From positions 1-60,709 of the forward strand of contig CAMDOO010000006.1 in assembly GCA_945903545.1 (NCBI GenBank): 60,709 nt of DNA. Direction: 5' to 3'. The notes under the pieces are model-generated. The model ran no database searches. It was not told the origin of the DNA and worked only from the letters and a program-made list of their open reading frames with translations. Below, one piece after another: positions 2,800 to 50,584 of this stretch. This stretch comes from Opitutus sp. GAS368 (GTDB lineage Bacteria; Verrucomicrobiota; Verrucomicrobiia; Opitutales; Opitutaceae). The position numbers and the translations under genes were made by a program. How positions within the stretch are numbered: the first letter of the stretch is position 1; each line of letters opens with the position of its first letter.

Positions 2800-2804
2800 A
2801 AATC

Positions 2805-2922
2805 AAAATGGCTGCGCCATTTTGGCCGAAAGCCTCCGTGGGTTTTTTCCGGACTCCTGACGCTCCATCCCAATGGCGCAGCCATTGGCTTGGCAGAATG
2901 CGGGCGAAGCCTGCATTCTGCC
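2805..2922. repeat. Three palindromes with three-base loops upstream of gnd
   Basis: Three hairpins in a row. The first is 2805-2823 (AAAATGGC, loop TGC, GCCATTTT). The second is 2870-2888 (CCAATGGC, loop GCA, GCCATTGG). The third is 2892-2922 (14-base arms starting GGCAGAATGC, one mismatch, loop GAA). The first two are near complements of each other. The design (perfect arms, triloop) matches palindromes found inside genes elsewhere in this window. Confidence 0.75.
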
Positions 2923-20438: not shown

Positions 20439-20508
20439 CGAGTGACAAGGGATCGGAAGCTGTCCTTTCTCCGAGCAACGTGTCACCCGTCACCCGTCAC
20501 TCGCCACC
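20421..20508. repeat. GTGACACGTGACGAGTGAC repeat across the oleC/oleD junction
   Basis: Left arm GTGTCGGGTGACACGTGACG, right arm GTGTCACCCGTCACCCGTCA. The left arm contains the oleC stop and the oleD start (ATGA at 20435-20438); the rest encodes the first about 24 residues of OleD. Confidence 0.85.
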
Positions 20509-21544
20509 CAGCCCTGCGCTGGTCACCGGCGGCACCGGCTTCCTTGGCCGGAAACTCGTCGAACGGCTGCTCGCCGAAGGACGCCAGGTCGCGGTGCTCG
20601 GCCGCACGCCCGCGCCGGACCTCGAGGCGAAGGGAGTCCGCTTCATCCGCGCCTCGCTCGATGACGCCCCTGCGGTCGAGGCCGCCTGCGCCGGGATCGG
20701 GACCGTCTTTCACACCGCGGCGAAGGTCGGGGTCTGGGGTCGCTACGACGATTTCTTCCGCACCAACGTGCTCGGCACCCGCGCGCTGCTCGCCGGTTGC
20801 CGGCGCCACGGGGTCGCCCACTTCATCCACACCAGCACCCCGAGCGTGGTTTACAATAGCCGCGACCTCGCCGGTGCCGACGAGTCGCTCCCGCTCACGA
20901 GCAACTGCCCGAGCCCCTATCCACTCACCAAGGCCATCGCCGAGCGCGAGGTCCTCGCCGCCAACTCCCCGGGGCTGCGTACCGTTGCCCTCCGCCCCCA
21001 CCTGATCTGGGGCGTGGGCGACCCGCACCTCGTGCCCCGCGTCCTCGCCCGCGCCCGCGCCGGCCGCCTGCGCATCGTCGGCTCCGGAAAAAACCGCGTG
21101 GACATGGTCCACGTCGACAACACGGTCGACGCCCACCTGCTCGCGGAAAAGGCCCTGCGGGAGTGTCATCTAATAGATGACATCTCCTCTGGGCGAAAGC
21201 GTGCGGATGGCCGGGCCTTTTTCATCACCAACGGCGAGCCGGTGCTGCTCTGGGAATGGATCAACGAACTCCTGCACGGGCTTGGGCAACCGCCGGTGAC
21301 GAAGAAGATTTCTCTCGGGGCCGCGTCCGCCGTCGGCGCCCTGTGCGAGGCGGCGTGGCGGGTGCTGCCAGTGCGCGGCGAGCCGCCGATGACGCGCTTC
21401 ATCGCCGCCGAGCTGGCCAGGGACCACTGGTTCGACCTTTCCGCGGCCCGCCGCGACCTCGGCTACGAACCCCGCGTCTCGATGGCCGCGGGCACGGCCG
21501 AACTGATCGCGTGGTACCGGCAAACCGGCCTGCCTCCGGCATGA
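20435..21544 (+). CDS. oleD: OleD-like NAD(P)-dependent 2-alkyl-3-ketoalkanoate reductase
   Basis: A 369-residue short-chain dehydrogenase/epimerase-type protein. The Rossmann motif ALVTGGTGFLGRKLVERLL starts at about residue 28. Catalytic YPLTKAIAE (YxxxK) and TSTPSVVYN are present, as is the late VDMVHVDNTVDAHLLAEKAL. It resembles the 3-beta-hydroxysteroid dehydrogenase-like OleD that reduces the OleA product. The first 24 residues come from repeat DNA and are probably dispensable. Residues 244-250 (CHLIDDI) come from a second in-frame palindrome. It overlaps oleC upstream and the transporter gene downstream by four bases each. oleA and oleB are not in the window. Confidence 0.82.
   Translation: MTSDKGSEAVLSPSNVSPVTRHSPPSPALVTGGTGFLGRKLVERLLAEGRQVAVLGRTPAPDLEAKGVRFIRASLDDAPAVEAACAGIGTVFHTAAKVGVWGRYDDFFRTNVLGTRALLAGCRRHGVAHFIHTSTPSVVYNSRDLAGADESLPLTSNCPSPYPLTKAIAEREVLAANSPGLRTVALRPHLIWGVGDPHLVPRVLARARAGRLRIVGSGKNRVDMVHVDNTVDAHLLAEKALRECHLIDDISSGRKRADGRAFFITNGEPVLLWEWINELLHGLGQPPVTKKISLGAASAVGALCEAAWRVLPVRGEPPMTRFIAAELARDHWFDLSAARRDLGYEPRVSMAAGTAELIAWYRQTGLPPA
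21164..21182. repeat. In-frame 19-bp palindrome within oleD
   Basis: TGTCATCTAATAGATGACA, a perfect palindrome around one central base. It is the exact reverse complement of 41228-41246 in rlmN. Flanking GGAG/CTCC and GCCC/GGGC pairs extend the symmetry. Confidence 0.92.
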
Positions 21545-22084: not shown

Positions 22085-22936
22085 TCAGCTCCGCTGCCGC
22101 ACCGCCTCGAACAGCGTGATGATCGTCGCCATCGCAACATTGAGGGAGTCGGCCTGGCCGGCCATCGGGATGCGCACGGGGAGGTCGGCGTTTTCCAGCC
22201 AGAATTTACTGAGGCCGTACTGCTCACTGCCCATGACGACGGCCAGCGGGCCGCGCAGGTCGGCGTCGGAATAGATCTTCTCCGCCGCCGGCGTGGTCGC
22301 GACCGTGCGGATTTTCTTCTCCCGGAGCCAGGCCTGGACCGCGGTGCTCTCGGCCACCACGCACGGCACGGAGAACAGCACGCCGGTCGAGGCCCGGACC
22401 ACGTTGGGGTTGAAGATGTCGGTGACCGGATCGCAGACGATCACGGCGTGGCAGCCCGCAGCGTCGGCACTGCGCAGGATCGTGCCGAGGTTGCCGGGCT
22501 TCTCGATCGCCTCGACCACGAGCAGGAAGGGCGCCTTCGCTGTAGCCGGGGTCGCTGACCCCGGACCGGCCTCACCGAGGCCAGCTACAATTCGATCCAT
22601 GTCGGCCAAGGTCCGCTGCCACTGCGGGGCCACGGCAAGGAGCCCGTCCGGCCGCTCCCGGTACGCGACCTTGGCAAAGGCGTCCTTGGATAGCTCGAAC
22701 AGCGTCGCCCCGGCCGCCGCGGCCTGCTCGAGCAGGGTGCGCTCGTTCTCGCCGAGGAACCACTCGGGCGAGAAATAGACTTCCCGCAGCGGGATCTTCT
22801 TCTCCAGCGCCCGCCGGACCTCGCGGTAACCCTCGACGAGGAACAGCCCCGCCTCGTCACGCGGCCGGCGGTCGCGCAGGCGCACCAGCTCCTTCACGCG
22901 GGGATTCTGGAGGCTGGTGATCTTTTCGGCGGGCAT
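22085..22936 (-). CDS. TrmH-family (SPOUT) RNA 2'-O-methyltransferase with repeat insert
   Basis: A 283-residue protein. The N-terminal substrate-binding domain starts ITSLQNPRVKELVRLRDRRPR and FLVEGYREVRRAL. The SPOUT domain has FLLVVEAIEKPGNLGTILRSADAAGCHAVIV, VVMGSEQYGLSKFWLENADLPVRIPM and DSLNVAMATIITLFEAVRQ (motifs 1-3 forming the knot). It methylates rRNA or tRNA ribose; the exact target is not visible. Between the two domains, residues about 116-132 (IVAGLGEAGPGSATPAT) are encoded by a palindromic repeat (22541-22589). It is divergent from and partly overlaps the upstream frame of the rlmD-like gene. Confidence 0.9.
   Translation of the reverse strand: MPAEKITSLQNPRVKELVRLRDRRPRDEAGLFLVEGYREVRRALEKKIPLREVYFSPEWFLGENERTLLEQAAAAGATLFELSKDAFAKVAYRERPDGLLAVAPQWQRTLADMDRIVAGLGEAGPGSATPATAKAPFLLVVEAIEKPGNLGTILRSADAAGCHAVIVCDPVTDIFNPNVVRASTGVLFSVPCVVAESTAVQAWLREKKIRTVATTPAAEKIYSDADLRGPLAVVMGSEQYGLSKFWLENADLPVRIPMAGQADSLNVAMATIITLFEAVRQRS
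22541..22589. repeat. In-frame GTAGCCGGGGTC...GAGGCCAGCTAC repeat within the trmH-like gene
   Basis: A 49-base element with outer TGTAGC/GCTACA, inner hairpins CCGGGGTCGCTGACCCCGG and GGCCTCACCGAGGCC. Intergenic copies lie at 27569-27617 and 39205-39254. Confidence 0.92.
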
Positions 22937-22950
22937 CGGTCTGTTTGTAG

Positions 22951-23045
22951 CGCCAGAGCCACGGAGGGCACGGAGAATCTACCCTGAATTTCAGCTTCGC
23001 CCGGCCGCGGTTCTCCGTGTCCTCTGTGCCCCTGTGGCCAAAAAG
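22951..23045. repeat. CCACGGAGGGCACGGAGAA / TTCTCCGTGTCCTCTGTG inverted repeat before the rlmD-like gene
   Basis: Left CACGGAGGGCACGGAGAA and right TTCTCCGTGTCCTCTGTGC arms. The right arm continues into CCCTGTGGCCAAAAA, where the likely GTG start (23034) of the next gene sits. Confidence 0.7.
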
Positions 23046-24386
23046 AAGTTCAACGACCATCCCTTCGCCTATCACCAGGAGATCGAGCTGGAGATCACCA
23101 CGCTCACCAACCTCGGCTCGGGCTTGGGCCGCGTGGCGCTGCCAGAATCTCAAATCTCAAATCTGAAATCTGAAATCGCGACCCAACCGCCGGCAGCCGC
23201 TGGTGGCTGGGTCGTCATGGTCCCCTTCACCCTGCCGGGAGAGCGCGTGCGGGTCCGGGTGTTCCGCAACCAGAAAAATTTCTCCGAGGCCGATCTCTTG
23301 GAGGTGCTCACTCCGTCGCCGCACCGCGTCGCCGCCCGTTGCACCCTGTTCGGCCGCTGTGGCGGCTGCCAGTACCAGCACCTCGCCTACGCGGAGCAGT
23401 TGCTCTGGAAACAGCGCCAGGTGGGCGAGCTCCTGAAATACATGGTGGGGATCGAATCCCCCGTGAACCCGGTCATCGCGTCACCGCGCGAGTACGGCTA
23501 CCGGTCAAAGATCACACCCCATTTTTCCGCTCTGCGGAAAAATGAAGGAATTCCCTCCGGGAATTCGCCGGATGCCGGCGGATCCCCGATTGGATTCCTG
23601 CGGGCCGGGAATCGTTTCGAACTGGTGGACGTGCCGGAGTGTCCGATCGCCACGCCCGAGATCAACGCGAAGCTCCCTGAGGTGCGCGAGAAGACCCGGC
23701 GGCGACTGGCCGCCGGAGAGTTCAAGCGCGATGCCACGCTGCTCCTCCGTCATTCCAGCGAAGGCGTCACCACGGACTACGACGCCATCATCACCGAGGA
23801 GATTGCGGTCGCCCGTCCGCCTTCCGCCGTCAGCCCTCCGCCCTCTCTCCGGCTCCGCTTCCTCGCCCGCGATTTTTTCCAGAACAACCCGTTCATCCTC
23901 CCGGCCTTCACCGGCTACGTGCGGGAGCAGGCGGCACAGACCGGGGCGCGTTTCCTCGTCGACGCCTACTGCGGCAGCGGACTCTTCGCCCTCGCGGCCG
24001 CCCCGGCCTTCGAGCGCGTGGCGGGCATCGAGATCAGCGAGAGCAGCATCCGCTTCGCGAGGGAAAACGCCGCGGCCAACAGCATCGCCAACGCCGAGTT
24101 CCGCGCGGGCGACGCCGCCGCGATCTTCGCCGGGCTGATATTTCCCCCGGCCGAGACCGCCGTGATCATCGACCCGCCACGCAAGGGCTGCGACGAATCC
24201 TTCCTCACCCAGCTCTTCGCCTTTGGCCCGCTCACCGTGGTCTACGTCTCGTGCGACCCGGCGACGCAGATGCGCGACCTCAAGGCCTTCCTCGCCGCCG
24301 GCTACTCCCTCGCTGCCGTGCAGCCCTTCGACCTTTTTCCGCAGACGCGGCATCTCGAGTGCGTGATCACGCTCCACCGGCCCTGA
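23034..24386 (+). CDS. RlmD/TrmA-like class I SAM-dependent RNA (uracil-5)-methyltransferase
   Basis: About 450 residues from a GTG at 23034; a longer frame opens at 22917 but reads through repeat DNA. Order: TRAM domain (IELEITTLTNLGSGLGRVAL), Fe-S cysteine motif CTLFGRCGGCQYQHLAYAEQ, FLARDFFQNNPFILP, FLVDAYCGSGLFALA, IIDPPRKGCD and catalytic VYVSCDPATQMRDL. It should form 5-methyluridine in 23S rRNA or tRNA. Repeat-derived inserts split the TRAM domain (residues 38-60) and the central domain (163-183). Whether it targets U1939 or another site cannot be decided from sequence. Confidence 0.9.
   Translation: MAKKKFNDHPFAYHQEIELEITTLTNLGSGLGRVALPESQISNLKSEIATQPPAAAGGWVVMVPFTLPGERVRVRVFRNQKNFSEADLLEVLTPSPHRVAARCTLFGRCGGCQYQHLAYAEQLLWKQRQVGELLKYMVGIESPVNPVIASPREYGYRSKITPHFSALRKNEGIPSGNSPDAGGSPIGFLRAGNRFELVDVPECPIATPEINAKLPEVREKTRRRLAAGEFKRDATLLLRHSSEGVTTDYDAIITEEIAVARPPSAVSPPPSLRLRFLARDFFQNNPFILPAFTGYVREQAAQTGARFLVDAYCGSGLFALAAAPAFERVAGIEISESSIRFARENAAANSIANAEFRAGDAAAIFAGLIFPPAETAVIIDPPRKGCDESFLTQLFAFGPLTVVYVSCDPATQMRDLKAFLAAGYSLAAVQPFDLFPQTRHLECVITLHRP
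23146..23214. repeat. Two adjacent in-frame repeats in the TRAM region of the rlmD-like gene
   Basis: 23146-23178 is the AAATCTC/AAATCTG heptamer-like repeat shared with oleC. 23179-23214 follows directly as an imperfect inverted repeat from CGACCCAACC to GGCTGGGTCG, encoding TQPPAAAGGWV. Confidence 0.85.
23520..23580. repeat. Three consecutive in-frame triloop palindromes in the rlmD-like gene
   Basis: CATTTTTCCGC/GCGGAAAAATG with loop TCT (23520-23544); GAATTCCC/GGGAATTC with loop TCC (23548-23566); CGCCGG/CCGGCG with loop ATG (23566-23580). All arms are perfect and the frame is kept. Confidence 0.9.
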
Positions 24387-34980: not shown

Positions 34981-35026
34981 CCGGGCAGGGGTCTGCCCGG
35001 ACTACACCCGATCCCAATGATGTAGC
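34981..35026. repeat. GGGCAGGGGTCTGCCC repeat after the operon
   Basis: Hairpin CCGGGCAG/CTGCCCGG (34981-35000) followed by ACTACA and, after a spacer, TGTAGC that leads into the next hairpin. Together with 35027-35046 it forms one inverted element; a second copy lies at 53925-53985. Confidence 0.75.
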
Positions 35027-38295: not shown

Positions 38296-38496
38296 GGTAG
38301 GGCGGACTCGGTGAGTCCGCCGGGATCCGTCCGAACGTTTGGCACGCAGAAACGCAGAAAACACGGAGGCCGGAAAGGTTTTGGGTCCAAACCCCGCGAT
38401 CCCTTCCTTGTCCCGCGTCTGCGGGACTTCTCTGCGTGAACCCAATCCGGTTCCGAGCTCCGCACGGCTGAGGCACCGCCTCAGCCCTGCCCCTAC
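38296..38496. repeat. Nested repeats between the M20 gene and marC-like gene
   Basis: Outer GTAGGGCGGACTC and GCCCTGCCCCTAC; inside, GGCACGCAGAAACGCAGAA and TTCTCTGCGTGA. The outer right end supplies the TAG stop (38493-38495) of the marC-like gene. Confidence 0.7.
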
Positions 38497-39074: not shown

Positions 39075-39605
39075 GGCCCAGAGTAAGCCGGCGGCCCGGC
39101 CCACGCAAGGCAGCCGCCGGAGCCCCCGACTGCAAACCATCGGACCTTTTGCACCAAAGCCGCGAACTCAGCAAAGGTTGGGGATCGGTAGTCGGTCAGT
39201 TTCCTGTAGCTGGCCTCGTTGAGGCCGGCCCCGGGGTCACCGACCCCGGCTACAGATCATTCGTTTCCGTCGCTACCTTCTGCAAAATTTTCGGCGGTGC
39301 TCAGCCCCGGCGGATGTTCGCCACAGAGTCACACGCCCAAGCCTCGGATTGTTGGCCGCAAAAGGGCGCAGAGGGCGCATAAACGGATTTCCCAAACTCC
39401 GAACCAAAAAAGTCAGGGGCTCGGGGGTCCGATGGATCGTTTTGCGCTTCTTGCGACTTTTTGCGGCTAAACCGGCTTGAGGATCGGAAACCCAATCCAT
39501 CATCCGTGGAGAAAACCTTCCTGTTCCCGGGAACCCTTTTCTTCCGATGGAGACATCATGCCAAGGAATATTGCCCCCCGGCATCCGCCTCCTACCTTCA
39601 CACCC
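39075..39605. other. Repeat-filled 531-bp intergenic region
   Basis: No gene seen. It contains the 50-bp GTAGCTGGCCTCGTTGAGGC repeat (39205-39254). It also holds an inverted pair of the GCCGCAAAAAGGCGCAAA family (TTGGCCGCAAAAGGGCGCA near 39352, GCGACTTTTTGCGGCTAA near 39452). The last 100 bases precede the phosphatase gene and include a short ATG-led frame in line with it that I do not consider coding. Confidence 0.6.
39205..39254. repeat. Intergenic copy of the GTAGCTGGCCTC...CCCCGGCTACA repeat
   Basis: Nearly perfect version of the element inserted in the trmH-like gene, in reverse orientation: TGTAGCTGGCCTCGTTGAGG followed by CCGGGGTCACCGACCCCGG and CTACA. Confidence 0.9.
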
Positions 39606-40630: not shown

Positions 40631-41896
<1,266 letters not shown>

Positions 41897-50509: not shown

Positions 50510-50584
50510 TCATCGCGGCCGGGCCGGCGGCCCAGCCCTACCCGCAGGCAGTCAATTTGGCCCGCCGGGACGGCGGGCCCTACC
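50510..50584. repeat. GGCCGGGCCGGCGGCCCAGCCCTACC repeat modules
   Basis: Contains GCGGCCGGGCCGGCGGCCC and CAGCCCTACC, then a second GGCGGGCCCTACC module. It fills the gap between the GNAT and arnA-decarboxylase gene ends. Confidence 0.7.

Follow-up and report, generated by a model that had tools for sequence, protein, structure and literature searches.

A hairpin in the variable loop of an Opitutus rlmD-like gene, probably made by fold-back copying of adjacent coding sequence

An rlmD-like gene of Opitutus sp. GAS368 carries several small palindromes close together in its coding sequence, which raises the question of how perfect hairpins come to lie, in frame, within a gene for a conserved enzyme. 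We addressed this question in a stretch of 60,709 nucleotides (the window), which is contig 6 of a genome (G000) of 3.08 Mb in 122 contigs, and in related genomes of the Opitutaceae.

Hairpins in the variable loop of the rlmD-like gene

The gene (22917..24386, forward strand, with a possible true start at 23034) is annotated as a 23S rRNA (uracil-5-)-methyltransferase. Its product matched TIGR00479 (rumA/RlmD) with 253.7 bits against a cut-off of 183.55, contained the TRAM and tRNA_U5-meth_tr domains, and matched the E. coli RumA structure 1uwv with E=5.8e-39. An earlier note on this DNA, made from the sequence alone, had described three perfect triloop hairpins with unrelated arms at 23520-23580. 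Two of these were confirmed as substantial hairpins. Hairpin 1 (23520-23544, forward strand) is perfect, with 11-bp arms, CATTTTTCCGC-TCT-GCGGAAAAATG; as read from the sequence, its left arm lies at 23520..23530 and spans codons for H-F-S-A, its TCT loop at 23531..23533 and its right arm at 23534..23544. Hairpin 2 (23548-23566, forward strand) is also perfect, with 8-bp arms, GAATTCCC-TCC-GGGAATTC, and is present in a single copy in the genome; its origin is less certain. Hairpin 3 (23566-23580, forward strand; CGCCGG-ATG-CCGGCG) has 6-bp arms, which carry no significance on their own, and it is probably a chance palindrome that needs no explanation. The arms of the three hairpins are indeed unrelated to one another.

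Hairpins 1 and 2 occupy a loop of rlmD that varies in length: among 104 sequences, the segment from ITPHF to IGF measured 16 to 67 residues as extracted, with a mode of 22. The same gene contains a second insert (23147..23178, forward strand), a short-repeat array of the SQISNLKSEI type. Such arrays (SQISNLKSEI, QNSKLQNS, STLNPQLS and the like) recur in protein loops of the Opitutaceae, including those encoded by rlmD and rlmN.

Whole-genome pattern searches found no dispersed donor family for the arms of the rlmD hairpins; AATTCCC..GGGAATT occurred at 1 site in the genome and TTTTCCGC..GCGGAAAA at 2. The latter pattern was considered as a family element and rejected, with 5 sites in 38 genomes, of which the window's own was the only one in rlmD. 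Inspection of the flanks of hairpins 1 and 2 revealed no GTAG tetranucleotide beside either stem.

Comparison of rlmD and rlmN loops across the Opitutaceae

To polarise hairpin 1, we compared it with rlmD from other members of its genus. In G002, the left arm CATTTTTCCGC was identical at 11 of 11 positions and the right arm was absent, and the alignment of G000 with G002 placed in G000 a 27-nt insert that contains the greater part of hairpin 2 and of the right arm of hairpin 1. Because G002 has the left arm without the right arm, the right arm of hairpin 1 is most simply explained as a derived, inverted copy of the left arm, whose H-F-S-A codons would have pre-existed as the anchor of the fold-back. 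This polarity comes from G002 only, and the right arm may, formally, have been lost there instead. A second member of the genus, G001, carries the hairpin CATTTTGCCGCG-C-CGCGGCAAAATG, in which a T:A pair of G000 is replaced by G:C on both sides; this difference may represent a compensatory change within one hairpin or separate events. In addition, CGGGAATTC of hairpin 2 resembles CGGGAACTTC, which is located after hairpin 1 in G001.

Hairpins anchored on conserved codons were also found in more distant rlmD genes. That of G019 (GCCGCACTTCGCGGCGC-C-GCGCCGCGAAGTGCGGC) has 17-bp arms, the left of which takes in the conserved P-H-F codons; the nearest relatives of G019 possess these codons and lack the hairpin. 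The rlmD genes L107 and L119 have hairpins anchored on the same codons too. The hairpins, mapped on an rlmD tree built by a quick maximum-likelihood method, required 4 changes, of which the starred branches force no fewer than 3. Anchored hairpins with arms of at least 10 bp occurred in 5 of 104 rlmD genes, versus 0.03 expected from shuffled sequence. This result refutes, for hairpin 1, the idea that we are looking at chance palindromes of a GC-rich gene that became conspicuous because many were read. Chance fits hairpin 3, as it does the majority of coding palindromes located in conserved protein without gaps, but it does not sit well with two triloop hairpins, with arms of 11 and 8 bp, that share one insert and are separated by 3 nt, and as an account of the locus we judge it very improbable.

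Similar observations were made for rlmN, where loop quasi-palindromes numbered 15 among 34 sequences, versus 0.05 expected. G003 rlmN contains a perfect 19-bp hairpin, CATGAGCACGACGTTCCGC-GCCT-GCGGAACGTCGTGCTCATG, whose right arm is the conserved coding sequence for RNVVLM. In G114, a congener of G003, the right arm differs by two synonymous changes (GTC to GTG and CTC to CTG), and the left arm mirrors both (GAC to CAC and GAG to CAG, i.e., D to H and E to Q), so that 15 bp are still perfectly matched. These mirrored changes fit homogenisation of the arms by template switching; separate events, or selection for the hairpin, could also have produced them. The hairpin is absent from two further members of the G003 genus, and those of G003 and G114 may be separate events. 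At the same place in G002 rlmN, the arm extends over 20 bp, 2 of them mismatched. In both rlmD and rlmN, then, hairpins recur at the same loop positions, with both arms carrying each lineage's own sequence.

The matched arm differences in the pairs G000/G001 and G003/G114 would also be expected if the hairpins were selected RNA structures acting in mRNA stability, pausing or rlmD regulation, with arms that covary by function. However, 95 of 104 rlmD genes have no hairpin with an arm of at least 9 bp at the loop, those present differ in place, size and sequence, and no Rfam match was found anywhere in the window. We therefore consider a selected RNA structure a poor candidate, and covarying stems in coding DNA do not necessarily imply a functional RNA. 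An assembly or library artefact, i.e., a fold-back chimera in metagenome-assembled genomes, was weighed as well, since the assemblies of G000, G001, G002 and G003, like those of most genomes compared, are fragmented and MAG-like. Against this, each hairpin is short enough for one read to span it, the reading frames are intact, and homologous hairpins recur across independent assemblies and in different genera, which leaves the artefact scarcely credible.

The window's own rlmN (40631-41896) contains the unique triloop hairpin CGGGATTCCGG-TGC-CCGGAATCCCG (41072..41096, forward strand) in its variable loop. A search for an ancestral arm found its first codon alone to be conserved, which leaves fold-back copying as no more than a possible origin. 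Among the anchored fold-backs, loops measured 1, 1, 3, 4, 4, 8 and 12 nt; a three-base loop is thus no signature of the fold-back process, and the loop length of three in hairpin 1 is incidental.

Palindrome families and the loop-length spectrum

A different explanation sees in the hairpins mobile palindromes of REP type that RAYT/Y1 transposases have carried into the gene, as for Rickettsia RPEs and the intragenic REPs of O. terrae. REPs that carry a GTAG tag and are accompanied by RAYTs have been described before; O. terrae (Verrucomicrobia, the same phylum) is reported to be highly enriched in them and, together with R. conorii, to have the most intragenic copies (PMC3733652). The G000 genome has both components: families of GTAG-tagged REPs, and three PF01797 (Y1_Tnp) matches over the cut-off, whose RAYT-subfamily status is putative. 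Its noncoding hairpins group into families with common arms, and in most families GTAG stands at the stem edge, as in GGGCGCGTG (7/7 copies), CCGGGGTC (12/13), GGCTGACTC (5/5), GGCCCGCCG (4/4), CCGGGCAG (5/5) and CCGGCAGA (8/10). Among noncoding triloops with arms of at least 8 bp, 30 of 64 were tagged, versus 3% at random positions, and GTAG-tagged REPs account for about half of all noncoding hairpins with loops of three or four bases. Tagged members within the window are CCGGGGTC-GCT-GACCCCGG (22546..22564, forward strand, within a predicted gene at 22085-22936), GGCGGACTC-GGT-GAGTCCGCC (38301..38321, forward strand), CCGGGGTC-ACC-GACCCCGG (39231..39249, reverse strand) and GGCCCGCCG-GGA-CGGCGGGCC (50559..50579, reverse strand); further hairpins with GTAG beside the stem lie at 34981, 35027, 35121, 53928, 53955 and 58425.

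Transposition is thus the right reading for many other hairpins of the window, and REPs do enter these genes: in L295 rlmN and in L115 and L025 rlmD, these very loops hold whole GTAG-tagged REP dimers that keep the reading frame. Hairpins 1 and 2, on the other hand, have neither the tag nor a dispersed family, and for hairpin 1 the mobile reading is largely refuted by its left arm, which is shared rlmD coding sequence. For the rlmD hairpins, we regard it as unlikely.

Other families have no tag. The CTA-W-TAG palindrome occurred at 25 sites in the G000 genome and at 0 in a reversed-pattern control; within the window it lies in rlmN (41228..41246, forward strand, with an imperfect second copy at 41274-41290) and inside a reductase/epimerase-like gene (20480-21544) at 21164..21182 on the forward strand. 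Across the family Opitutaceae, this 17-bp dispersed palindrome (GTNANCTA-W-TAGNTNAC) was found in 46 of 120 genomes, in up to 53 copies, with near zero in the reversed-pattern control and no GTAG tag; copies are often paired at a spacing of about 45-58 bp, and the stem varies by genome (GTCATCTA, GTCACCTA, GTAACCTA, GTCAACTA, GTAAACTA) with its symmetry mostly kept. Of 34 Opitutaceae rlmN genes, roughly one in four to one in three (e.g., L218, L294, L296-L299, L301 and L308) carry an in-frame, NATTN-centred hairpin with a fully matched stem of 9-14 bp that differs between genera; these hairpins are apparently related to the CTA-W-TAG family. A variable loop of an mnmA-like gene (L315, in G019) holds a hairpin with 16-bp arms, GCGACCTCCCGGTCGC-GTTAACG-GCGACCGGGAGGTCGC. 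With REP dimers (L025, L115, L295), CTA-W-TAG palindromes and short-repeat arrays all inserted there, the rlmD and rlmN loops are tolerant sites that gather several kinds of insert.

The window also contains the dispersed hairpin CAAAATGGC-TGC-GCCATTTTG (2804..2824, forward strand), a member of an untagged family (AAAATGGC); the pattern (C)CAAAATGGC-NNN-GCCATTTTG(G) had 6 more sites in the genome sample described below, likewise untagged and intergenic. A dispersed CATTTT..AAAATG element was rejected, having 6 sites versus 3 in a reversed-pattern control and unrelated contexts.

The earlier note had extended its triloop design to rlmN, a nuclease gene and an intergenic gap, and had predicted an excess of hairpins with three-base loops. 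The rlmN hairpin (41072-41096) and those with loops TGC at 2804 and GCA at 2870 were all recovered, and the nuclease gene yielded no loop-GGC hairpin with arms of at least 8 bp. Within the window, loop-3 hairpins with arms of at least 8 bp numbered 13, versus 1.8 expected. We then determined the loop spectrum in 861 kb of the 3.08-Mb genome, taken in stretches. For arms of at least 9 bp and loops of 1, 2, 3 and 4 bases, there were 31, 24, 41 and 43 noncoding and 13, 11, 11 and 6 coding hairpins, versus 10.3, 8.0, 9.3 and 11.0 expected in the whole sample. The predicted excess at three bases is therefore real, but it is shared by loops of 1, 2 and 4, extends scarcely beyond 4, and is almost all noncoding; in 800 kb of G003, from another genus, there was little excess at three. 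The coding excess was limited to arms of at least 10-11 bp (at arms of at least 11 bp, loops of 1, 2 and 3 gave 4, 2 and 5 hairpins versus 1.3, 0.7 and 0). Such a loop-length excess can be largely the product of REP families.

Between G000 and G003, 128 orthologue-like pairs differ in length by 4 residues or more at 115 sites, which hold 11 hairpins versus 2.8 after shuffling, and hairpin density was 1.07 per kb at length-variable sites versus 0.36 in ungapped coding sequence. The proposal that all coding palindromes are insertions was rejected: of the 16 candidate sites that could be aligned with G003, the majority fall where the conserved protein has no gap, and many coding palindromes of this kind are probably chance. 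Altogether, the single architecture that had been proposed mixes GTAG-tagged REPs, the CTA-W-TAG family (41228, 21164) and another dispersed family (2804). Structure-guided copying, the mechanism suggested for it, is probably right for hairpin 1, given the arm found in G002, but does not explain the triloops as a whole.

A proposed fold-back mechanism and its relation to known systems

We propose that hairpin 1 arose by fold-back (template-switch) insertion, and that this process has recurred at the edges of the RlmD and RlmN loops, the arms being later kept matched; from the sequence comparisons, we give this reading about three chances in four. It is favored for hairpin 1 by an arm common to the outgroup, the lack of the other arm there, and the lack of a donor family. 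Further support comes from G019 rlmD and G003 rlmN, in which an arm reads as conserved codons in reverse complement, and from the mirrored changes of G003 and G114; fold-back thus appears supported in relatives also, for G019 rlmD and for G003, G114 and G002 rlmN. In this mechanism, a polymerase copying the edge of the gene would switch to the nascent or the opposite strand, copy the coding sequence just before that point, over about 11 nt, as its reverse complement, and then switch back. The result would be a perfect hairpin that keeps the reading frame and lengthens the RlmD loop, which tolerates such change, by a few residues. The same process would have been repeated at conserved edges of RlmD and RlmN loops in the Opitutaceae, and later template switching (quasipalindrome correction) could preserve the identity of the arms. 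We infer the replication step itself, the strand used and the same origin for hairpin 2.

A bolder and decidedly tentative proposal, which we would not expect to hold, is that fold-back is unusually active in the Opitutaceae, repeatedly building in-frame hairpins from the conserved codons that edge the loops of housekeeping enzymes and keeping their arms matched, with synonymous changes in the adjacent conserved arm dictating new loop sequence. These genes provide polarised bacterial examples, in conserved protein genes, of hairpins copied from the edge of the very gene that carries them, and the synonymous changes in a constrained arm that are mirrored as amino-acid changes in the other bear on the origin of new loop sequence.

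The mechanism is already known; the newer element is that it recurs in conserved enzymes of bacteria, in frame and with one arm tracking the other. Previous studies showed that template-switch (quasipalindrome) mutations create and maintain hairpins in RNA genes (Monttinen & Loytynoja 2022, PMC8794818). There, as proposed here, an inverted copy of adjacent sequence forms a perfect stem in one event and the arms then change together; the difference is that those are RNA genes, whereas ours are in-frame insertions in bacterial protein-coding genes. Template switching in Saccharomyces (PMC8604942) likewise homogenises arms in coding DNA, with amino-acid changes, but acts on existing inverted repeats or inverts their spacers, whereas the Opitutaceae arms are newly inserted in loops of conserved enzymes and anchored on conserved codons. 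The GTAG REPs of RAYT systems (PMC3733652) resemble the window hairpins in being short, with small loops, several stem families per genome and intragenic copies, and they account for many of the others in the window, but not for hairpins 1 and 2, which have no tag and no family. Rickettsia RPEs, as described in PMC3733652, are also palindromic inserts, in frame, in functional proteins; they form dispersed families, whereas hairpin 1 is copied locally from the gene in which it lies. Finally, the coding palindromes of Nematomorpha mitochondria (PMC6649704) are perfect inverted repeats in conserved coding sequence too, but they are mitochondrial, are much longer (up to 284 bp) and have both arms in conserved protein.
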